A DNA stretch of 64,000 nt from Byssovorax sp. GTDB taxonomy: Bacteria; Myxococcota_A; Polyangia; Polyangiales; Polyangiaceae. The notes beneath the pieces were generated by a model. That model made no database searches and was not told the DNA's origin. It saw only the letters and a list, made by a program, of their open reading frames with translations. Positions 5,322-39,250 of this stretch are shown here, piece by piece; the first letter of the stretch is position 1; each line of letters starts with the position of its first letter. The DNA is taken from assembly GCA_025362495.1 (NCBI GenBank), contig JANYGI010000133.1:1-64000 (forward strand). Direction: 5' to 3'. A program made the position numbers and the translations under genes.

Positions 5322-8300
5322 TCAGATCCCCGTCGGGTTGTACTTCTTCGTGATCGGCGGCTTCGGTGTCTTGATCGGGGGCCTCGTCGTCGCGCCGGGG
5401 CCCTTGCCCTTCGGCGTTTTGCCGGTCGGCACGACGGGCTCGGCCGTGGGTGCAGCGGTCGGCGCAGGCGGCGTGTCGACGACCGCGCTGGCCGTTGGCG
5501 GCGGGACGACGACGCTCGGCGTGGTCGCGGGCGGCGGCGCATCCGTCGTGGCGATCGCCGCGCTCGCGGTGGGGAGCGTGGGCGTCGCGACGGTCGCGGC
5601 CGTCGTCGGTGTCGTCTCGGGATGGGCGGGGCCGGTCGGGCCTTTGCCGCCCCCGAGCGCGACGGCGAGGATGCCGACGAGCGCGCATGCCGCGATGACG
5701 GCGCCGACAATCACCTGCAAGCGCTTCGATCGCGGCGGCGCCGGGGCCACGTCGTTTTCGGGCTCGTCGAGCGTCGACGGCGGCGACGTCTCTTCGTCCG
5801 CGCTGGCCTTGATCGGCGGCGGGCGCATCGCTTCGGCTTCGATCGGGGCTGCCGGCGCGAAGATGTCGAGGGGGAGCTCGTCGTCCGCGGCGGCGGGCTC
5901 GGCGGGCTCCTTCGCGGAGGCGGCGCGGTCGTCGAGATCGATCACGAGCGCGCTGGGCTCGTCTGCCGGCTTGGCGCTGGAGGCCGGGCCATTCGCGCCG
6001 TCGGCGTCGAGCTCGGGCTTCGTGGGGTTGCCCGGGCGCTTGCCGGCGTCGAGGAACCGCAGCGCGTCGGAGCGCGGGATGTCGGCGCTCGAGCTGGTGA
6101 GCGCGTCGAGCGAGGCGATCGCCGATTTGATGTCCGCCGCGCGCTTCGCCTGGGTCTCGCCGATCGCCTTGCGGACGAACTCGGCGACCTCGCCCTCGCT
6201 CGCGGGCTCGCCGAGCGTGAGGCCGATCTGATCGAGCGCGCGCTGCAGCTCCGCGGCCGTGGAGAAGCGATTCTTGGGATCCTTCTCGAGCGCCTTGAGG
6301 ACGAGCTTCTCGAACTCGACCGGCAGCGCGGCGTTGATCGTGCGCAGGGGCACGGGCGATTTGAGCGCGATGTTCTCGACCGTCTTGCCCTCGGTCTCGC
6401 CGCGGAACGGGTGGAGCCCCGTGGCCATCACGTAGAGCAGCGCGCCGAACGAGAAGATGTCGCTGCGGCGATCGAGCGGGAGGCCGCCGAGCTGCTCGGG
6501 CGAGAGATACGGCGTCTTGCCTTTCACCATCCCGCCCGCGCGAGTGACGTGCATGCGACCCTTGGATTTGGCCACGCCGAAGTCGACCAGCTTCACGAAG
6601 CCGGCCATCGACACGAGCACGTTCGCGGGCGAGACGTCGCGGTGGATGAGATCGACCAGGTTGCCGCTGTCGTCGCGGAGCTCGTGCGCGGCGTGGAGGC
6701 CGGCGCAGGCCTGCGAGGCGATGCGGAGGATCACCGGGAGCGGCATCCCGCCGAGGGCGCGCGCGGCCTTGAGCACGACGCTGAGGTTCTCGCCGTCGAC
6801 CCACTCCATCACGAGGTAGAGGACGTCGTCTTGCTCGCCGAGGTCGAGGATCTCGGCGACGTTCGGGTGGCGGATCCGCGCGGCGACGCGGGCCTCGTCG
6901 AGGAACATCTGCTCGAAGTCCGGATCGTCGGACACGTCGGGCAGCATCGTCTTCACGGCGACGAGCTTCTGGAATCCGCGCGTGCCCATGAGGCGCGCGG
7001 CCCACACGGAGGCCATCCCACCGCGAGCGATCGGCGTGAGGATCTCGTAGCGACCGAGGGTGCTCGCGGGGCCAATCTTGTCGATCGCCGTCGCGGATTT
7101 GCCGCGGATCAACGAGTCGGACGTGGGCGTGTCGGTGGTGGGCGTGGCGCCGGTCTTGCGCTCGGAGAGCGGCCCCGACTTCGCGAGCAGCGCGACGGCC
7201 GAGGCCGGCGCGACGGGCTCGATCTTGGCTTCGGGCGTCGCCTCGGCGCGCGTCGATGCGGGGACGGGCTCTTCCGACTTCACCACCGGCGAGCCGAGCA
7301 TCAGCGTCTTCCCGCGCGCGGGAATGGGCGTGGTGGCGGCGGGCTTCGCGGCGGCCGCGACCGGCGCGGGCGTGATCGCCGGCGTCGGCGTGATCGCCGG
7401 CGCCGCCTTCACGGGCGCGGGCGGAGGCTCGCTCGTCGAGCCGACGTCGACGTCGAAGCCGTCGTCGAGATCGTCGACGACGCTCTCGAACTCGGGGCGC
7501 GGCGGCGGCGGCTTCGGGGGCGGCGGCTTCGGCGTCTCGGCCTTCCCCTCGACCGGCTTCACGGCGTCGAGCTTCGGCGCGGCGACGCCGAGCAGCGTCT
7601 GCTTGCGCGCCATGATCGGCTTCGTCGCGGGCTTCGGCGCCTCGACCTTGACCTCGGCGGGCTTCGGCGTTCCGGGCTTCGCCGCGGCGGCCGCGGGCGC
7701 CTCGGCCTTCGCCTCGCTCGCGGGGACCGGCGCGGTGGGCCGCTGATCTTCCGGCACGCTCGGGCGCGTCTCGAGCGGCGCGCGCATGGGCGGCGGCGGG
7801 ATCGTCGGAGCGCGGGCCGTGCGCTCGGCGGGCGTCCCGACCACGTTGCGGCGCGCGGCGATCGCCTTGCCCGCGAGCTTCTCGACGAGCTCGGCCACGT
7901 CGGCGTGCGACGCGATGTTCTCGGCGCCGGCCTCGACGGCCGCGAGCAGCTCGCCCGCGGTCTGGTAACGGCGCGCGGGATCGCGATCGAGGGCCTTCTG
8001 GATCGCCTCGTCGAGCCCGCTCGGGAGCGTCACGCCGGCCACGGTCCCGGGCGCGGCGATCGGCGCCGTGAGCACCTTCTGGATCACGGCGGCCTCGATC
8101 TTCGAGGAGAAGAGGCGCTGCTTCGTCGCGCCTTCCCAGAGGATCACGCCGAGGGCGAACACGTCGGCGCGTGGCTCGAGCGCGACCTGCGCGGCGATCG
8201 GCGACGCCATGGATTTCACGCGCTCGGGCGCCGCATACGCGAGGCGATCGCCGTTCTTCGCGCCGAGCAGCGGGAGCCGCGCGAGCCCGCGCGCCGTGCC

Positions 8301-8792
8301 GAAGCCGACGACGCGGGTGACGCCGTCGACGCCGACGAGCAGGTGCTGCGGCGAGAGCTCGCCGTGGCAGAGCGCGTCGAGACCGTGAGCGGCCGTGACG
8401 GCGCCGAGCGCGTCGAGCGCGATGCGGATCACCACGGGCAGCGGGAGCCCGGCCGGACCGGACGCCGTGACGAGGCCCGCGAGCAGCTCGCCCTCGAACT
8501 GCTCCGTCACGAGAAAAATCTCACCCTCTTCGTTGCCGGCGTCGATCAGCCGGAGCGCGTTCGGGTGGCGCAGCGCCTCGGCGCGGCGCGCGTCGGTGAG
8601 CAACGCCTCGGCCAGCTCGGCCTTCTTGACGAGGCTCTTCTGCACGCGGAGCAGGGAGCGGAGCGGGGAATCGCTCGCTTCGTCGGAGGATCGGGCTAGC
8701 CAGGTGGTGCCGAGCCCACTCTTCGCCTGCTCCTTGAATAGCTCGTACCGACCGAGCTTCGCGGCGGCGCCTACCGGCGTATCGACTGCCAT
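5322..8792 (-). CDS. Tandem pseudokinase-kinase membrane protein (Hanks-type Ser/Thr kinase)
   Basis: 1156 residues. Residues about 14-300 form a kinase-like domain with a broken active site: the VAIK lysine position reads LLRVQ (Arg49), HRDxxxxN is HGELSPQH (143-150), and DFG is GFG (163-165), while APE (188-190) is kept. After a long Ala/Pro-rich linker, a second and complete kinase domain starts about residue 577 (LGRYEILTPIARGGMASVW) with VAVK, HRDVSPANVL and DFGVAKS. A transmembrane helix (about 1027-1050, VIVGAVIAACALVGILAVAL) and a Pro/Thr-rich tail follow. The N-terminal domain is probably a pseudokinase regulating the active one in cis. The gene immediately downstream encodes the TPR/hairpin protein, so the two are almost certainly one operon. 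Confidence 0.93.
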   Translation of the reverse strand: MAVDTPVGAAAKLGRYELFKEQAKSGLGTTWLARSSDEASDSPLRSLLRVQKSLVKKAELAEALLTDARRAEALRHPNALRLIDAGNEEGEIFLVTEQFEGELLAGLVTASGPAGLPLPVVIRIALDALGAVTAAHGLDALCHGELSPQHLLVGVDGVTRVVGFGTARGLARLPLLGAKNGDRLAYAAPERVKSMASPIAAQVALEPRADVFALGVILWEGATKQRLFSSKIEAAVIQKVLTAPIAAPGTVAGVTLPSGLDEAIQKALDRDPARRYQTAGELLAAVEAGAENIASHADVAELVEKLAGKAIAARRNVVGTPAERTARAPTIPPPPMRAPLETRPSVPEDQRPTAPVPASEAKAEAPAAAAAKPGTPKPAEVKVEAPKPATKPIMARKQTLLGVAAPKLDAVKPVEGKAETPKPPPPKPPPPRPEFESVVDDLDDGFDVDVGSTSEPPPAPVKAAPAITPTPAITPAPVAAAAKPAATTPIPARGKTLMLGSPVVKSEEPVPASTRAEATPEAKIEPVAPASAVALLAKSGPLSERKTGATPTTDTPTSDSLIRGKSATAIDKIGPASTLGRYEILTPIARGGMASVWAARLMGTRGFQKLVAVKTMLPDVSDDPDFEQMFLDEARVAARIRHPNVAEILDLGEQDDVLYLVMEWVDGENLSVVLKAARALGGMPLPVILRIASQACAGLHAAHELRDDSGNLVDLIHRDVSPANVLVSMAGFVKLVDFGVAKSKGRMHVTRAGGMVKGKTPYLSPEQLGGLPLDRRSDIFSFGALLYVMATGLHPFRGETEGKTVENIALKSPVPLRTINAALPVEFEKLVLKALEKDPKNRFSTAAELQRALDQIGLTLGEPASEGEVAEFVRKAIGETQAKRAADIKSAIASLDALTSSSADIPRSDALRFLDAGKRPGNPTKPELDADGANGPASSAKPADEPSALVIDLDDRAASAKEPAEPAAADDELPLDIFAPAAPIEAEAMRPPPIKASADEETSPPSTLDEPENDVAPAPPRSKRLQVIVGAVIAACALVGILAVALGGGKGPTGPAHPETTPTTAATVATPTLPTASAAIATTDAPPPATTPSVVVPPPTASAVVDTPPAPTAAPTAEPVVPTGKTPKGKGPGATTRPPIKTPKPPITKKYNPTGI

Positions 8793-9054
8793 GACCCGCG
8801 AATCCTAACAGGTTCGCCAAGTCGGGGTGAATGATCGTGACCACTTCTTGCCCGCGAGCCGCGCGTTGCGGGCAACTTGCGACGCGCGCTCTCTCCTTCT
8901 AGGATCGGAAGATGACCCTGCGAGTGCGGCCCGCCAGGTCGCGAGCCGTCTCGGATCCGGTGCTGCCGGGGTGCTCGTGGAGCGCGGTTGCCGCGCGGCC
9001 GATCGATCGCGTCGACGGGGTCGCGATCACGTCGACGGGCGCGGGGCGACGATC

Positions 9055-33953: not shown

Positions 33954-34556
33954 TCAGCAGTCGCCGCCGCGGCGCATGGTCATCATCGACGCGGGGCGGA
34001 TCCCGAGGATGGCATAGGCCTTTTCCCACCGATCCTCGGCTGCCACGTCGAACAGCACGCCTTCGTCGAGCGGGACGGGGAGCCACGCGCCCGCGGCGAT
34101 CTCCCCCTCGAGCTGCCCCGGCCCCCAGCCGCTGTAGCCGAGGAGCACCGTGCGTCGCCGGGGATCGATCTCGCCTGGCCTTCGCGCCTCGGTGTCGCGC
34201 GCGAGGGCGTCGAACGCGCTCCGCGACGAGGTGACGCGGACGCGGTCGCCCACGGCGATGACGCCGTTGTCCTCGGGCGCCATCGTCGGATCCAGGCAGA
34301 GGATCCACCCCGAGCTCGGCTGCACGGGGCCGCCGACGTAGACGGCCGACGCGCTGGTCGAGCCCTCGTCGCCGTAGCCCGCGAGCTTGAGCAGCTCGCC
34401 GAGCTTCATCGAGGCTTCGCGGTTGACGACGAAGCCGAGGGCCCCGCCGTCACTGTGGAGCGCCAGCAGCACCACCGTGCGATCGAAGTTCGGATCGCCG
34501 AGCGGCGGTGATGCGATGAGGAAACCTGGCGCGAGCGTGCCGAGCGATTTCGCCAT
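33954..34556 (-). CDS. YqgE/AlgH family protein (DUF179)
   Basis: 200 residues from the ATG of MAKSLGTLAPGFLIASPPLG. Family marks are DPNFDRTVVLLALHSDGGALGFVVNR (split here as NFDRTVVLLALHS then GALGFVVNR), VYVGGPVQPSSGWILC, GYSGWGPGQLEGEI and AWLPVP. The YqgE/AlgH fold is conserved widely, but its biochemical role is unsettled; AlgH was named from an alginate-regulation phenotype. The gene converges with sbcC across 37 bp. A TATGCT element 6 nt before the ATG may indicate a leaderless transcript. Confidence 0.9.
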   Translation of the reverse strand: MAKSLGTLAPGFLIASPPLGDPNFDRTVVLLALHSDGGALGFVVNREASMKLGELLKLAGYGDEGSTSASAVYVGGPVQPSSGWILCLDPTMAPEDNGVIAVGDRVRVTSSRSAFDALARDTEARRPGEIDPRRRTVLLGYSGWGPGQLEGEIAAGAWLPVPLDEGVLFDVAAEDRWEKAYAILGIRPASMMTMRRGGDC

Positions 34557-34645
34557 GCCCGGAGCATATCCGGCCGGACCCGCCGATCGCGAACGATCCG
34601 CGCCCGAGGTCGCACGCCGTTGCAACGCGGGCTACCCTCGCCGCC

Positions 34646-35344
34646 ATGATTGCCGAGCCGCGTGATTCCCTGCCGGCGGCGCCGCTGCGCCCGCACGTCA
34701 CGCTCCATTTCGCGCAGACGCTCGACGGGAGGATCGCCACGCGCACGGGCTCGTCGCGCTGGATCAGCGGGCCGCCGGCCACGCGCTTCGCGCACGAGCT
34801 CCGGGCCGAAGCCGACGCGGTGATCATCGGCTCCGGCACCGCGATCGCCGACGATCCGCTGCTCACCGTGCGCCTCGTCGAGGGTCGGCAGCCCCTCCGG
34901 GTCGTCCTCGACGCGCGCGCGCGCCTGCCTCGAAGCTCGAAGCTCCTCGCCGACGCCAGCACCGCGACGATTCACGTGACGTGCTCGCCGGCTCGTGATG
35001 GCGAGGCGGCGCACGTCGAGGCCTGGCGCCTGCCTCCCGGTGCCGGCGGCGTCGGCGTCGATCTCGACGCCCTGCTCCAACGCCTCGCCGCGCGCGGTGT
35101 GAGCCGCGTCCTCGTCGAGGGCGGTAATCGCGTGATCACCGCTTTTTTGCGGCGCGAGCTCGTCGATCGGATCGTCGTCACGGTCGCGCCGATGATCCTC
35201 GGCGCGGGCATCGACGCGGTCGGCGATCTCGGGATCGAGCGCCTCGATCATGCGCTTCGCTTCACCCCGGTGCGCGTCTTCTCGCTCGGCGACGACGTGC
35301 TGATCGAGCTCGCGCGCCGGCGCTCCACCGAGGCGTCGGCGTGA
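34646..35344 (+). CDS. RibD-reductase/dihydrofolate-reductase-like protein
   Basis: 232 residues with no deaminase domain, so it is a stand-alone RibD C-terminal fold. Motifs are HFAQTLDGRIATRTGSSRWI, ADAVIIGSGTAIADDPLLTVR, PLRVVLDARARLP, VSRVLVEGGNRVITAFL and VDRIVVTVAPMILGAG. Known members reduce the ribosylamino-pyrimidine of riboflavin synthesis with NADPH, or related pyrimidine/pterin-like substrates. It is the first gene of a five-gene operon and overlaps the next gene by 4 bp (GTGA). Since the neighbours are a PTPS-like protein and a glycosyltransferase, its substrate is more likely a pterin-related intermediate than riboflavin (inference). Confidence 0.85.
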   Translation: MIAEPRDSLPAAPLRPHVTLHFAQTLDGRIATRTGSSRWISGPPATRFAHELRAEADAVIIGSGTAIADDPLLTVRLVEGRQPLRVVLDARARLPRSSKLLADASTATIHVTCSPARDGEAAHVEAWRLPPGAGGVGVDLDALLQRLAARGVSRVLVEGGNRVITAFLRRELVDRIVVTVAPMILGAGIDAVGDLGIERLDHALRFTPVRVFSLGDDVLIELARRRSTEASA

Positions 35345-36357
35345 GCGCGGCGCGCGCCGTCTGGTTCGAATCCCCGGGGATCGCAGCGATTCGCGTGGAG
35401 CCGCTGCGCGCGCCCTCCGCGGGCGAGGTCGTCGTCGCGGCGGTCTGCTCCGGCATCAGCGCGGGCACCGAGCGGCTGGTGCTCACGGGCAACGTGCCCC
35501 CCGAGGCGCGCGCGATCATGGCCCTGCCGGCGATGCGCGGCGGCTTCGATCTCCCGGTGAGCTACGGCTACGCGCTGGTCGGTCGCATCGAGGAGGTCGG
35601 GCCCGGCGTCGGCGCGAACCGCGTCGGCGAGCGCGTGCTCCTCCTCCATCCGCATCACGATCGCGTCGTCACGTCGATCGAGGCGATCCGCCCTCTCCCC
35701 GAGGGCCCGCCGAGCGAGCGCCTCGTGCTCTTGCCCAGCCTCGAGACGGCGATCAACGTCGTGTGGGACGCCGGCGTGGCGCTCGGCGATCGCGTGCTGG
35801 TGACGGGGCTCGGCGTCATCGGTCTGCTCGTCGTTCACCTCGCGGCGCGCGCCGGGGCCGCGGCGATCGTGGCTGTCGATCTCGATCCCGAGCGTCGCGC
35901 GCTGGCGATCGCGCTCGGCGCCACCGAGGCCCTGTCCGAGCCCGAGGCTGCGGCCGTCGCGGCGTGCGACGTCTCGATCGAAGCGTCGGGATCGCCGGCG
36001 GCGCTCGCGGCGCTGATCGAGCATGCGGGCCTGGAAACGAGCGTGATCGTCGCGTCCTGGTACGGGAGCGCCCTCGCGGCGTTGCCCCTCGGAGGCCGCT
36101 TTCACCCGCACCGTGTCACGCTCCGCTCGAGCCAGGTCGGCCGCCTCGATCCGCGCCGCAGCGCGCGCTGGACCTTCGCGCGCCGCTGGGCCCTCGCCGG
36201 GGAGCTCTGCCGCGACGGCGATCTCGATCGATTGATCGCGCCCTCGGTGCCGCTCGCCGACGCTCCCGCCGTGTATGCCGAGCTTGCCCGCGGCGTGCGC
36301 TGGTCGCCGCCGCAGCGGGTGTTCGACATGATCCGCCGCGCCCCGGAGCCGGTATAG
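35341..36357 (+). CDS. Medium-chain dehydrogenase of the pterin-like operon
   Basis: 338 residues, GTG start. This MDR-superfamily protein has an N-terminal SGISAGTERLVLTGN motif, as in BchC-type dehydrogenases, and a Rossmann segment VLVTGLGVIGLLVVHLAARAG, then VAVDLDPERRALAIALGATEAL. The Cys/His ligands of classical zinc alcohol dehydrogenases are not evident, and the four-Cys structural zinc lobe is absent. It overlaps the RibD-like gene by 4 bp and is followed 8 bp later by the PTPS-like gene. Probable role: NAD(P)H-dependent oxidation or reduction of the pathway's side chain (inference). Confidence 0.85.
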   Translation: MSAARAVWFESPGIAAIRVEPLRAPSAGEVVVAAVCSGISAGTERLVLTGNVPPEARAIMALPAMRGGFDLPVSYGYALVGRIEEVGPGVGANRVGERVLLLHPHHDRVVTSIEAIRPLPEGPPSERLVLLPSLETAINVVWDAGVALGDRVLVTGLGVIGLLVVHLAARAGAAAIVAVDLDPERRALAIALGATEALSEPEAAAVAACDVSIEASGSPAALAALIEHAGLETSVIVASWYGSALAALPLGGRFHPHRVTLRSSQVGRLDPRRSARWTFARRWALAGELCRDGDLDRLIAPSVPLADAPAVYAELARGVRWSPPQRVFDMIRRAPEPV

Positions 36358-36365
36358 TTCTGCGC

Positions 36366-36782
36366 ATGTACTCTGTCGGCGTCCGCGATCACATCATGGT
36401 GGCCCACAGCCTCGCCGGAGAAGTCTTCGGCCCGGCGCAGCGTCTCCACGGAGCGACGTACACCGTGAGCGTGGAGATCGAGCGCGAAGAGCTGGGCCCC
36501 GACGGCATCCTCTGCGACATCGGCATGCTCCGCAGCGAGCTGCGCGCCGTGCTCGATACGCTCGATTTCCAGAACCTCGACGAGCACCCGGCCTTCCCCG
36601 GTCGCCGCTCGACGACGGAGCTCATCGCGCGCCACATCCACCGCGAGCTCGGCCCGCGCCTGCCCTTCATCGCGGGCGTGATGCTGACGATCACGCTCGA
36701 CGAATCGCCCGCCGCCTGGGCTCGCTACCGCGCCCCCGTCGGCCCGACGATCGCGCTGCCGACGCCGATGACGCGCCTCTGA
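36366..36782 (+). CDS. Divergent 6-pyruvoyl-tetrahydropterin synthase/QueD-like protein
   Basis: 138 residues, the size of PTPS/QueD (T-fold, zinc enzymes acting on dihydroneopterin triphosphate). The frame DHIMVAHSLAGEVFGPAQRL then HGATYTVSVEIE aligns with the family's AAH.L...C...HGHNY. Here the second histidine of HGH is Ala (HGA) and the usual upstream catalytic Cys is missing (PAQRL). The later LDFQNLDEHP, STTELIARHIHREL and TLDESPAAWARY blocks correspond to the LDH..LN, PTaEnlA and E-motif regions. The zinc site is therefore altered and the chemistry may differ from QueD or PTPS. A TATAGT element lies 7 nt before the ATG. Confidence 0.85.
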   Translation: MYSVGVRDHIMVAHSLAGEVFGPAQRLHGATYTVSVEIEREELGPDGILCDIGMLRSELRAVLDTLDFQNLDEHPAFPGRRSTTELIARHIHRELGPRLPFIAGVMLTITLDESPAAWARYRAPVGPTIALPTPMTRL

Positions 36783-36785
36783 AGC

Positions 36786-37853
36786 GTGCTCCCGCCGATC
36801 ACGTTCCTCGTCGACGGTGACCTCGATCAGCCGACGGGCGGCTACCTCTACGATCGGATCGTCATCGAAGGTCTGCGCGAGCGCGGGGCCTCGGTGCAGA
36901 TCGAAAACCTCGCGGTGGGCGGGGCGATTTCGACGGTGATTGAGAGCGCCCGCGTCGCGCTCCGCCGCGCGCGCGAGCCGCGCGAGTCGCTGGTGATCGT
37001 CGACGAGCTCTGCCACCCCCGCGTCGGCCTCGCGTCGCTGATCCACCGCGTTCGCCCGCGCGCGCCGCTCGTCGCGCTCGTGCATCACCTCGCCGCGAGC
37101 GAGCGCTCGGGGCCCGCCGCGCGAGCCCGCCTCGTCGTCGAGCGCCTCCTGCTCGACGCGGCGTCGCTGGTGATCGTCACCAGCGAGACCACGCGCCGCG
37201 CGGTCGCCGCGGCCGGCGTCGATCCCGCGAAGATCCGCGCCGTCCTCCCGGGGCGCGATCGCCTGGGCGAGCGCCTCGCGCCGCCGTCTCCTTCCGTTGA
37301 CGGTGTGGTACGTCTGCTCTTCCTCGGCTCGCTCACGCCGCGAAAAGGCGCGGCTTCGCTCGTTCGCGCCATGGAGGCGGTGGGCTCGCGCGCGACCCTC
37401 ACGCTCGTCGGCCCCGCCGATCGCGACCACGCGTACGCGGCCGAGGTGCGCGCCGCGATCGCGCGTTCCCCCGCGCGGGATCGCCTCCACATCACGGGCG
37501 AGCTGCCCGACGCCGGGGTCGCCGCGGCGCTCGCGTCGCACGATCTCCTCGTCTTGCCGAGCCTCCACGAAGGGTTCGGGATCGCCATCGCCGAGGCGCT
37601 GGCGCACGGCCTCGGCGTGATCTCCACCACGGCCGGGGCGATCCCCGAGGTCGTGCGCGACGGCCGCGAAGCCATCCTCGTTCCACCCGGCGACGAGCGC
37701 GCCCTCGCCGCGGCGCTCGTCCGGGTCGTCGGCGATCCGGCCCTGCGCGCCGCGATGGCGTCCGCGGCGGTCGACCGAGCCCGCGCGCTCCCGCGATGGA
37801 AAGACACGCAGCAAGCCTTCGCCGACGCGTTACGATCGGTCGCGAAACGATGA
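36786..37853 (+). CDS. GT4-type glycosyltransferase of the pterin-like operon
   Basis: 355 residues, GTG start 3 bp after the PTPS-like stop. GT-B fold: N-terminal LVDGDLDQPTGGYLYDRIVI acceptor-side loop, VHHL, LVIVTSETTRRAV, then the donor-binding half with LLFLGSLTPRKGAASLVRAM and the EX7E-type PSLHEGFGIAIAEALAHG. The family transfers sugars from nucleotide or other activated donors with retention. In this context the acceptor may be a pterin, since glycosylated pterins are known in cyanobacteria and other bacteria (inference). It overlaps the next gene by 4 bp (ATGA). Confidence 0.88.
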   Translation: MLPPITFLVDGDLDQPTGGYLYDRIVIEGLRERGASVQIENLAVGGAISTVIESARVALRRAREPRESLVIVDELCHPRVGLASLIHRVRPRAPLVALVHHLAASERSGPAARARLVVERLLLDAASLVIVTSETTRRAVAAAGVDPAKIRAVLPGRDRLGERLAPPSPSVDGVVRLLFLGSLTPRKGAASLVRAMEAVGSRATLTLVGPADRDHAYAAEVRAAIARSPARDRLHITGELPDAGVAAALASHDLLVLPSLHEGFGIAIAEALAHGLGVISTTAGAIPEVVRDGREAILVPPGDERALAAALVRVVGDPALRAAMASAAVDRARALPRWKDTQQAFADALRSVAKR

Positions 37854-39250
37854 GCGACACCCCCCTCTGCGAAGGCACGTTGATCACCTACAAGTCCGGC
37901 GTCGCCATCGGGCGCGAGCGCTACCGCGACGACGGCGCCTCGCTGGTGAGCGAGATCCACCTCGGGCCGTCGTCGATCACCGTGACGCTCACCCGCGAGC
38001 CTCTGCGCGTGCGCGTCGACGCCGCCGGCAATAGCGTCGAGCGCGACGTGCCCGCCGGCGCGATCGTCCTCGAAAATGGCTCCTGGCAAGCGTATTCGAT
38101 CGCTGCTGCCCGGTTCGCCGACACCGCCTCGCCGGCCTCTGTCGACGTGCTGATCCCCTCGGTCGGCGTGACCGCGAACGGCACGATCGCCGTGCGCCCG
38201 AGCGAGGCCGGTGGCCGTCGCGTCGAGGTGGTGATCCATGGCCTCCAGATCGAGGTCGAGATCGACGCGGCCGGCGATGTCGTCTCCGCGCGCGTCCCCG
38301 CGCAGGGCCTCGAGGTGCGTCGCGAAGGTGCTCCCGCGCCCGCGCCCGATGCGCCGCGATCGCCGCCGCCGGGCGTGATCGAAGAGGCCTTCGAGGAGAC
38401 GCGCGAGGGCGTCGCGCTCCGCGGCGAGCTCTGGATCCCGGCCGGCGAGATCGAGAAGATCCCCGTGGTCCTCGTGATCGCCGGATCCGGCCCCACCGAT
38501 CGCGACGGCAACAGCTCGCTCGGTCTTCGCACCGACGCGTACCGCCTCGTCGCGGCGGCGCTCGCGGCGCGCGGGATCGCCTCGCTCCGCTACGACAAGC
38601 GCGGCGTCGGGAAGAGCGGCGCCGGGTTCGATCCCGCGACGACGGTCATCGACGATTTCGCGGCCGATGCGCGGGCGGTAGCGTTGCGGCTGCGCGCTGA
38701 TCCTCGCTTCTCCACGCTCGCGGTCCTCGGCCACTCGGAGGGCGGGCTCCTCGCGCTGATGATCGCCGAGCACGCCGCGCCCGACGTGCTGCTCCTCGTC
38801 GCGACGCCGGGGCGGCCGCTCGGCGTCGTCCTCCGCGAGCAGCTCGCGCAGCGGCTCGATCCGCGCGCGATGGTCGACGTCGATCGCCTCCTCGACGCCG
38901 TGCGCCGCGGCGCCTCGCCGGATCCCGTCCCCGCGCCGCTCGCGCCCCTCTTCGCGCCCGCGGTGCGCGCCTTCCTGCGCAGCGCGCTCGACCTCGATCC
39001 GCTCCCGCTCCTCCGCGCCGCGAAGGCCCGCGTCGCCATCGTGCAGGGCGCGTTCGACGTCCAGGTCACGCCGCTCGACGCGCGCCTGCTCGCCTCGGCG
39101 CGCCCCGACGCGACCCTGACGATCCTCCCGACGATGAACCACGTGCTCAAGGCCGAGGCGTCGGCGGCGATGCCGCAGCCGAGCTACGCGGACCCGTCAC
39201 GCCCGCTCGCGCCCGGCCTCGGCGACATCCTCGCCGCGGCGCTGCGGTAG
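37850..39250 (+). CDS. Alpha/beta hydrolase with N-terminal beta domain
   Basis: 466 residues. The N-terminal half (about 1-175) is beta-rich and not recognised. The C-terminal half is an alpha/beta hydrolase: VVLVIAGSGPTDRDGNSSLG (oxyanion region), SLRYDKRGVGKS, nucleophile elbow GHSEGG, a candidate acid in VQGAFDVQV and catalytic His in PTMNHVLK. No signal peptide is visible. The ATGA overlap with the glycosyltransferase gene makes it the last gene of the operon. It may be an esterase or deacylase acting on the pathway product, but the coupling could also be incidental. Confidence 0.85.
   Translation: MSDTPLCEGTLITYKSGVAIGRERYRDDGASLVSEIHLGPSSITVTLTREPLRVRVDAAGNSVERDVPAGAIVLENGSWQAYSIAAARFADTASPASVDVLIPSVGVTANGTIAVRPSEAGGRRVEVVIHGLQIEVEIDAAGDVVSARVPAQGLEVRREGAPAPAPDAPRSPPPGVIEEAFEETREGVALRGELWIPAGEIEKIPVVLVIAGSGPTDRDGNSSLGLRTDAYRLVAAALAARGIASLRYDKRGVGKSGAGFDPATTVIDDFAADARAVALRLRADPRFSTLAVLGHSEGGLLALMIAEHAAPDVLLLVATPGRPLGVVLREQLAQRLDPRAMVDVDRLLDAVRRGASPDPVPAPLAPLFAPAVRAFLRSALDLDPLPLLRAAKARVAIVQGAFDVQVTPLDARLLASARPDATLTILPTMNHVLKAEASAAMPQPSYADPSRPLAPGLGDILAAALR

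Follow-up and report, generated by a model that had tools for sequence, protein, structure and literature searches.

A conserved RibD_C-MDR-PTPS-GT4 gene unit in Byssovorax sp. and its candidate role in making a glycosylated pterin-type compound from GTP

PTPS-II, the biopterin enzyme of the 6-pyruvoyltetrahydropterin synthase (PTPS) family, has a zinc-bound active site with an Asp-His pair. For the PTPS-like protein SCO6650 of S. coelicolor, a structural study reportedly found that zinc and the catalytic triad are absent and that the protein does not carry out the PTPS reaction, and to our knowledge proteins of this type have a structure but no known function. A GTP cyclohydrolase II (GCHII) with Met at the switch position, SCO6655, is said in a 2006 study in Biochemistry to form 2-amino-5-formylamino-6-ribosylamino-4(3H)-pyrimidinone 5'-phosphate (FAPy). 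The creatininase-family protein BrbF deformylates FAPy to 2,5-diamino-6-ribosylamino-4(3H)-pyrimidinone 5'-phosphate (DARPP) and serves riboflavin synthesis in rhizobia and their relatives (PMC9478397). Within COG0720, signature motifs distinguish QueD (CxxxHGH), PTPS-II (CxxxxxHGH) and PTPS-III (ExxHGH), and the same source calls the function of the PTPS-V subfamily 'still unclear' (PMC5041015). Among modified bacterial pterins, pepteridine of Photorhabdus requires a PTPS homologue for its synthesis, which uses GTP cyclohydrolase I (PMC5384830), and pterin glycosides are known in cyanobacteria (PMC13259868); the accessible portions of both reports describe no RibD_C-MDR-GT4 unit. Such a unit, with a PTPS-like gene in it, is analyzed here at positions 34,646 to 39,250 of a 64,000-nucleotide stretch of Byssovorax sp. 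DNA ("the window" means this whole stretch).

The locus lies on contig C37 of a 10.8-Mb genome that is 97% complete, and its nearest named relatives among the matches listed are those of Polyangium and Sorangium. Its genes are the following.

34,646 to 35,344, plus strand: stand-alone RibD_C reductase of 232 aa without a deaminase domain, likely a DARPP reductase (Pfam RibD_C, 174 bits; PDB match 6p8c)
35,341 to 36,357, plus strand: MDR-family dehydrogenase of 338 aa, with a GTG start and a 4-bp overlap with the RibD_C gene (Pfam ADH_zinc_N, 40 bits)
36,366 to 36,782, plus strand: PTPS-like T-fold protein of the SCO6650 group, 138 aa, with an ATG start after an 8-bp gap from the MDR gene (Pfam PTPS, 86 bits)
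36,786 to 37,853, plus strand: GT4 glycosyltransferase of 355 aa, with a GTG start after a 3-bp gap from the PTPS gene (Pfam Glyco_trans_1_4, 107 bits)
37,850 to 39,250, plus strand: EstD-like alpha/beta hydrolase of 466 aa, accessory or unrelated, with a likely ATG at 37,850 and a 4-bp overlap with the GT4 gene (Pfam Hydrolase_4, 46 bits)

All five Pfam scores exceed their cut-offs. The sequence and the list of open reading frames give five tightly packed genes joined by 4-bp overlaps or 3-8-bp gaps, and together with the Pfam and NCBIfam scans they bear out the packing and the families named in the original prediction, which had been made from the sequence alone. The four genes from 34,646 to 37,853 are read here, tentatively and at slightly less than an even chance, as a reduced form of a widespread pathway that leads from GTP to a glycosylated pterin-type compound through the GCHII branch. 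There is good support for a conserved biosynthetic unit that starts from GTP, and its likeliest product is a glycosylated compound of pterin type; the sequence in which the reactions follow one another and the lipid step discussed below are hypotheses. Gene content, linkage, distribution and the loss of residues are observed, and the reactions and product are deduced from them.

An alignment of seven PTPS relatives seeded a scan of the genome collection, which gave at least 588 sites coding for a relative, and the 80 best of these were used. Neighbor families were built by clustering and then counted with profiles (37 families listed, some of them identified; the gene caller used is based on GC content, and some frames are mis-called). 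Within 4 kb of the PTPS gene, 94 loci showed MDR in 89 cases, GT4 in 80 and RibD_C in 66, followed by a class I methyltransferase (55), a CDP-alcohol phosphatidyltransferase (38), a sulfatase-fold protein (23), a flippase-like LPG-synthase transmembrane protein (22) and a creatininase-family protein (8); GCHII was counted in about 19, an approximate figure as its profile included antisense reading frames (L027, L053, L074). At 11 control loci, whose PTPS genes are ordinary ones of the HGH type throughout, none of these families was found; the stretches extended at least 4 kb on both sides in six cases and less than 4 kb on one or both sides in five; an earlier control had consisted of eight short loci of 2.1-3.3 kb. 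The profiles were trained on most of the 94 loci, and seven of these (L126-L132) as well as 44 later loci lie outside the training set, and none of their PTPS genes reaches 93% DNA identity to any gene in it. Of the later loci, 26 are from Pseudomonadota (MDR in 26, GT4 in 25, RibD_C in 22, methyltransferase in 18, phosphatidyltransferase in 12), and nine strong or cut actinobacterial loci had MDR in eight, GT4 in nine, RibD_C in two and creatininase in six. Among 138 loci, the order MDR-PTPS-GT4 occurs in 106 and the full order RibD_C-MDR-PTPS-GT4 in 23, a set that spans Polyangiales, Alpha- and Betaproteobacteria and the actinobacterial phylum, the last of which accounts for six.

Thus, the RibD_C, MDR, PTPS-like and GT4 genes are a conserved unit, and the alpha/beta hydrolase gene lies outside it: none of 11 related loci carries a match, so that it was rejected as a core gene, contrary to its initial inclusion. 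The groupings of these families that had been suspected in other phyla are conserved there, and an absence of conserved linkage, which would have spoken against the whole idea, is not what the neighborhoods show. Only two RibD_C and two PTPS matches exist in the whole 10.8-Mb genome, and the linkage recurs across phyla; it is therefore not due to chance.

The unit is widespread. With counts that are lower bounds, as 10-14 first-look candidates were scored per genome, and with the center genome included, the PTPS type was found in the window's phylum in at least 9 of 282 genomes (E 1e-20) and in the Rhizobacter phylum, Pseudomonadota, in at least 27 of 398 (E 1e-40). In the Micromonospora phylum, 36 of 346 genomes match at E 1e-20, the weak matches including ordinary QueD proteins, and 8 at E 1e-60 or better. 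Further loci among the best 80 come from Actinobacteria, Gemmatimonadota, Acidobacteria, Planctomycetota, a Spirochaetaceae metagenome-assembled genome (MAG) and a Nostoc MAG. Among nine weak actinobacterial loci, L184-L186 encode ordinary QueD proteins and have genes for GCHII and a RibD_C-like protein at a distance of 4-7 kb. In six others (L178-L183), a diverged PTPS protein retains HGH, but Ala replaces the cysteine and Tyr the catalytic His, within the window's four-gene order; judged by these residues, they are possibly an intermediate state.

The closest solved structure to the window's PTPS-like protein is that of SCO6650 (PDB 3d7j; profile E 3.4e-63), which has the same FGPA-x3-HGAT motif. 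The predicted structure (pLDDT 92.5) has 3d7j as its top Foldseek match, and VIA gave 3d7j a Z of 19.9 at 48% identity, versus a Z of 16.6 for QueD, in match lists that sample rather than exhaust the families. With the FGPA-x3-HGAT and NLD motifs and the fold of 3d7j, the protein belongs to the SCO6650 group. Its motif reads A24-QRL-H28-G29-A30, so that the HGA first noticed in place of HGH is genuine (residues 28-30); Ala24 replaces the Cys of QueD, Ala30 the third zinc His and Phe68 the catalytic His, while Glu113 is kept. It shares the T-fold with QueD, PTPS-II and PTPS-III and retains Glu113 and a TTE motif, but not their signature motifs. We take Glu113 and TTE to pair with PTPS positions, the Glu presumably being the pterin-anchoring one. 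Identity with PTPS-I/QueD was rejected (no CxxxHGH; 50 bits to TIGR03367, cut-off 89), as was identity with PTPS-II (no CxxxxxHGH, with Gly at position 22 and Ala at 30; third His replaced by Ala30 and catalytic His by Phe68) and with PTPS-III of folate synthesis (no ExxHGH, with Gln at position 25 and the motif HGA).

These replacements are general in the group. In an alignment of 86 PTPS proteins, Ala is found at position 24 in all and at position 30 in 85, L71-D72 in all and N70 in 85, and H14, H28, E85 and E113 are invariant. The FGPA and HG columns are partly conserved by construction, because the scan patterns contained them; A30, T31, L71, D72, E85 and E113 are conserved independently of those patterns. 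A later profile search added 35 PTPS proteins, of which 33 have A...HGA and two could not be read by the script. One locus, L028, was left out of the alignment for its broken PTPS frames; its RibD_C and PTPS frames are interrupted at 7149-8830, through assembly error or decay. Since the catalytic residues of PTPS and QueD are lost, their known chemistry is unlikely here. The proposal that the PTPS-like protein forms or rearranges a GTP-derived heterocycle thus survives in one half: such a heterocycle is likely, because larger relatives carry GCHII and creatininase-family genes, whereas a PTPS- or QueD-like reaction is not.

Many clusters possess a local GCHII paralogue, and those beside a creatininase-family gene are altered, with HSEC changed to HS[A/S]C or the switch Tyr changed to Met or His. 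In the first 21 loci, altered GCHII occurred nine times with and once without creatininase, and canonical GCHII never with and 11 times without it (p = 3.4e-5, uncorrected for kinship); in 23 later loci, the corresponding numbers were 10, seven, zero and six (p = 0.019). In actinobacterial loci, all seven GCHII proteins with Met or His at the switch and none of the eight with Tyr were accompanied by creatininase (p = 1.6e-4, again uncorrected for kinship; L187, a 3.8-kb contig, left out). The GCHII table excludes L064 (cut off), L027 (antisense) and the loci with creatininase in which no local GCHII was read (L039, L052, L056, L062, L112, L189, L199). Six SCO6650-like actinobacterial clusters (L171-L176) combine a Met-switch GCHII, as in SCO6655, with creatininase, phosphatidyltransferase, flippase-like and methyltransferase genes, the methyltransferase and phosphatidyltransferase in six of six; the window has none of these, but has RibD_C. 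In the two GCHII proteins of this set that were printed in full, those of L171 and L175, HCEC stands for RCDC. The cluster creatininases are of the same family as BrbF, and their deformylase activity is predicted; one of them matched the archaeal deformylase ArfB weakly (37 bits, cut-off 180).

The window locus itself has neither a local GCHII paralogue nor a creatininase-family gene, and no canonical riboflavin, folate or queuosine gene stands beside the operon. Such genes are found elsewhere in the genome: a bifunctional RibD on C232 (TIGR00326, 315 bits over its full length, cut-off 156), a ribBA-like gene adjoining that of lumazine synthase on C61 (186 bits, cut-off 85), FolE on C17 and a second PTPS-family gene on C28 (117 bits). 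It follows that the operon is not the housekeeping set for riboflavin, folate or queuosine. An ordinary riboflavin operon was rejected on the grounds that the riboflavin genes are separate and that the cluster loci have no lumazine synthase gene; among the 138 loci searched, such a gene lies near PTPS only at the three ordinary-QueD loci L184-L186. The cluster as a general replacement of FolE was rejected as well, because a search of 23 cluster genomes, among them that of the window, found FolE in 21 (a search that covered FolE and not the FolE2 family). Of three GCHII homologues in the window genome, on C24, C61 and C97 (L122, L123 and L124), two were read and both have canonical residues; the third, the C61 one within ribBA, is a weak match to the GCHII model (74 bits against a cut-off of 206), so that the C24 or C97 homologue may serve riboflavin. 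Polyangium and Sorangium have a similar GCHII pair. The absence of riboflavin partners, which had been noted at the outset, thus applies to the window locus and not to the family, whose members often have a GCHII paralogue of their own.

The RibD_C protein matches 6p8c, named a DARPP reductase, best among PDB sequences (127 bits, compared with at most 85 for full-length bifunctional RibD chains). Like the ArfC/Rib7-type DARPP reductases, which act on the 2-amino substrate, it consists of RibD_C alone, but at 124 bits it falls short of the TIGR01508 cut-off of 186. It is not a bifunctional RibD, as TIGR00326 matches its C-terminal part only (135 bits, cut-off 156). It is more likely a DARPP reductase acting at an early step than a late pterin reductase. 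The MDR protein (predicted structure with pLDDT 95.8) has conserved SGxSxGTE and YGY motifs, with S40 and Y77 invariant in 43 sequences. Ser40 aligns with the Cys of GIC in RspB, in an alignment that stops short of the His-ligand column, and this loss of a catalytic zinc-ligand Cys sets it apart from zinc-dependent MDR alcohol dehydrogenases. Most of the top fold matches in the PDB are dehydrogenases of threonine, polyols, butanediol and alcohols, including sorbitol and galactitol-phosphate dehydrogenases, and the sequence match to the PDB covers mostly the nucleotide-binding half. Its best NCBIfam model is BchC, the 3-hydroxyethyl bacteriochlorophyllide dehydrogenase (TIGR01202), at 68 bits far below the cut-off of 291 and hence outside that family. 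The enzyme likely oxidizes a secondary alcohol. Reduction of the heterocycle by the first two enzymes, as initially proposed, therefore gives way to a probable early DARPP reductase and a probable secondary-alcohol dehydrogenase without the zinc Cys.

Overall, the proposed route would run from GTP, by way of FAPy in some clusters, to DARPP, a ribityl-diaminopyrimidine, its oxidation, ring closure or handling, and glycosylation. In larger relatives, the altered GCHII would release FAPy and the creatininase homologue would deformylate it to DARPP; in the window, DARPP would be drawn from a housekeeping GCHII encoded elsewhere, since the locus has neither gene. RibD_C would then reduce the ribosyl group of DARPP to ribityl, with the 2-amino group presumably kept, as the family member lacks a deaminase domain. 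MDR might oxidize a hydroxyl of the ribityl chain, most simply at C2', and the T-fold protein might bind the aminopyrimidine or pterin and either promote ring closure with the 5-amino group or channel the product. Reduction at C1' followed by oxidation at C2' would have the same outcome as the Amadori step in the GTP cyclohydrolase I reaction; the resulting phosphate would resemble that of dihydroneopterin, and GT4 would add a sugar to it. Glycosylation agrees with the near-constant presence of GT4, which has an N-terminal TGGYLYDR motif common to its relatives; of the earlier proposal, this presence stands and the sugar transfer itself is a prediction from the family. The most novel version is a pterin ring made independently of GTP cyclohydrolase I by RibD_C at C1', MDR at C2' and closure on the T-fold protein, and then glycosylated; in larger clusters the phosphatidyltransferase would attach it to a phospholipid, and after flipping the sulfatase-fold protein would set it free. 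As a whole, this version is unlikely.

If the ribityl chain is kept instead, a carbon unit would be condensed with the ribityl-diaminopyrimidine to give a pterin substituted at position 8 or a lumazine-like compound, with the sugar on its ribityl chain, and MDR would act on the added unit. This draws on the same GCHII and RibD_C family evidence and would explain why FolE does not suffice, but among those of the 37 neighbor families that are identified no supplier of the carbon unit was recognized, and we regard it as doubtful. Rather more unlikely is a tetrahydropterin glycoside derived from FolE, in which dihydroneopterin triphosphate is processed, RibD_C and MDR are late pterin reductases and GT4 glycosylates the product. 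The cyanobacterial glycosides, the frequency of FolE in cluster genomes and the distant relationship of RibD_C to dihydrofolate reductase (1cz3, E 3.4e-6) fit with it, but the PTPS-like protein does not have the residues for the PTPS reaction and the relatives' GCHII and creatininase-family genes indicate the other GTP branch. That the genes merely supply extra precursors of riboflavin or F420 type or regulate the use of GTP, with no new product and GT4 as a bystander, is very improbable: the RibD_C, GCHII and creatininase families do include riboflavin-type members, but GT4 is retained in most of the 94 loci and in nearly all the further Pseudomonadota ones, RibD, ribBA-like and lumazine synthase genes lie elsewhere in the genome, and among the loci searched lumazine synthase is confined to the ordinary-QueD loci.

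Several observations weigh against the route from DARPP to a glycosylated pterin-type compound. With FolE in nearly all cluster genomes, a second neopterin-like route would be redundant unless its product differs. Three Sorangium-type loci keep PTPS without an adjoining RibD_C, MDR or GT4, and six SCO6650-like actinobacterial clusters have no local RibD_C. The association of altered GCHII with creatininase falls to p = 0.21 in the later set once the three ordinary-QueD loci are removed, and seven Pseudomonadota loci have an altered GCHII and no local creatininase, so that the pairing is one-directional. All 21 genomes searched for creatininase-family genes have them at some place, the window's having two, so only adjacency is informative. 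Finally, fold matches are no proof of function.

We know of no product of this gene group, and none was found in the searchable literature, from which subscription journals are mostly absent. Given the wide distribution, the product is probably a cofactor, pigment, signal or envelope component, and the cluster gives the SCO6650-type proteins a context. Larger relatives add to the core the GCHII paralogue, the creatininase-family gene, the methyltransferase, the CDP-alcohol phosphatidyltransferase and the flippase-like and sulfatase-fold proteins, and the last three form a module that might serve to export the product in lipid-bound form. The CDP-alcohol motif is intact and invariant in 24 of 24 aligned phosphatidyltransferases, and one phosphatidyltransferase matched choline, ethanolamine and serine phosphotransferases weakly in a PDB search; the one flippase-like protein scanned scores 147 bits against LPG_synthase_TM, and 15 aligned sulfatase-fold proteins have conserved E, S and DH positions resembling those of LtaS, with no PDB match for the one searched. 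Among 11 genomes searched, the cluster-type phosphatidyltransferase was matched in six; the five that gave no match are the window's genome and two each of the Polyangium and Sorangium types, and for three of these five (G018, G320, G321) the scoring covered 150 of 184-250 candidates. It seems, therefore, that the pathway of the window lineage is a reduced one that ends in a glycoside. The product of larger clusters may travel on a lipid and be exported. A phospholipid-mounted pterin, if real, would constitute a lipid-carried export route for pterins, and the separability of the four-gene core, as in the window, from this optional module makes the order of steps testable.

The alpha/beta hydrolase scores 76.6 bits against the EstD model (cut-off 600), and its reading frame has a further in-frame start upstream, at 37,796. 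The operon is preceded by a divergent gene that serves as a synteny marker outside the pathway.

33,954 to 34,625, minus strand: YqgE/AlgH gene (DUF179, 128 bits)

This gene was matched in seven of 11 related loci, namely those of Polyangium and Sorangium type. Ten of the 94 loci have a GT2 gene close to the cluster (L046, L048, L053, L059, L088, L093, L097, L101, L107, L112); the only one scanned, that of L059, is MdoH of glucans biosynthesis, and a link with periplasmic glucans is possible. In the Sorangium-type genomes, the PTPS gene (L023:9434-9838, L033:10001-10405 and L036:6160-6567) sits between yqgE and a helicase-like gene, at the site where Polyangium and the window carry RibD_C-MDR-PTPS-GT4, and strain So0157-2 has a second, diverged set of the four genes elsewhere (L079).

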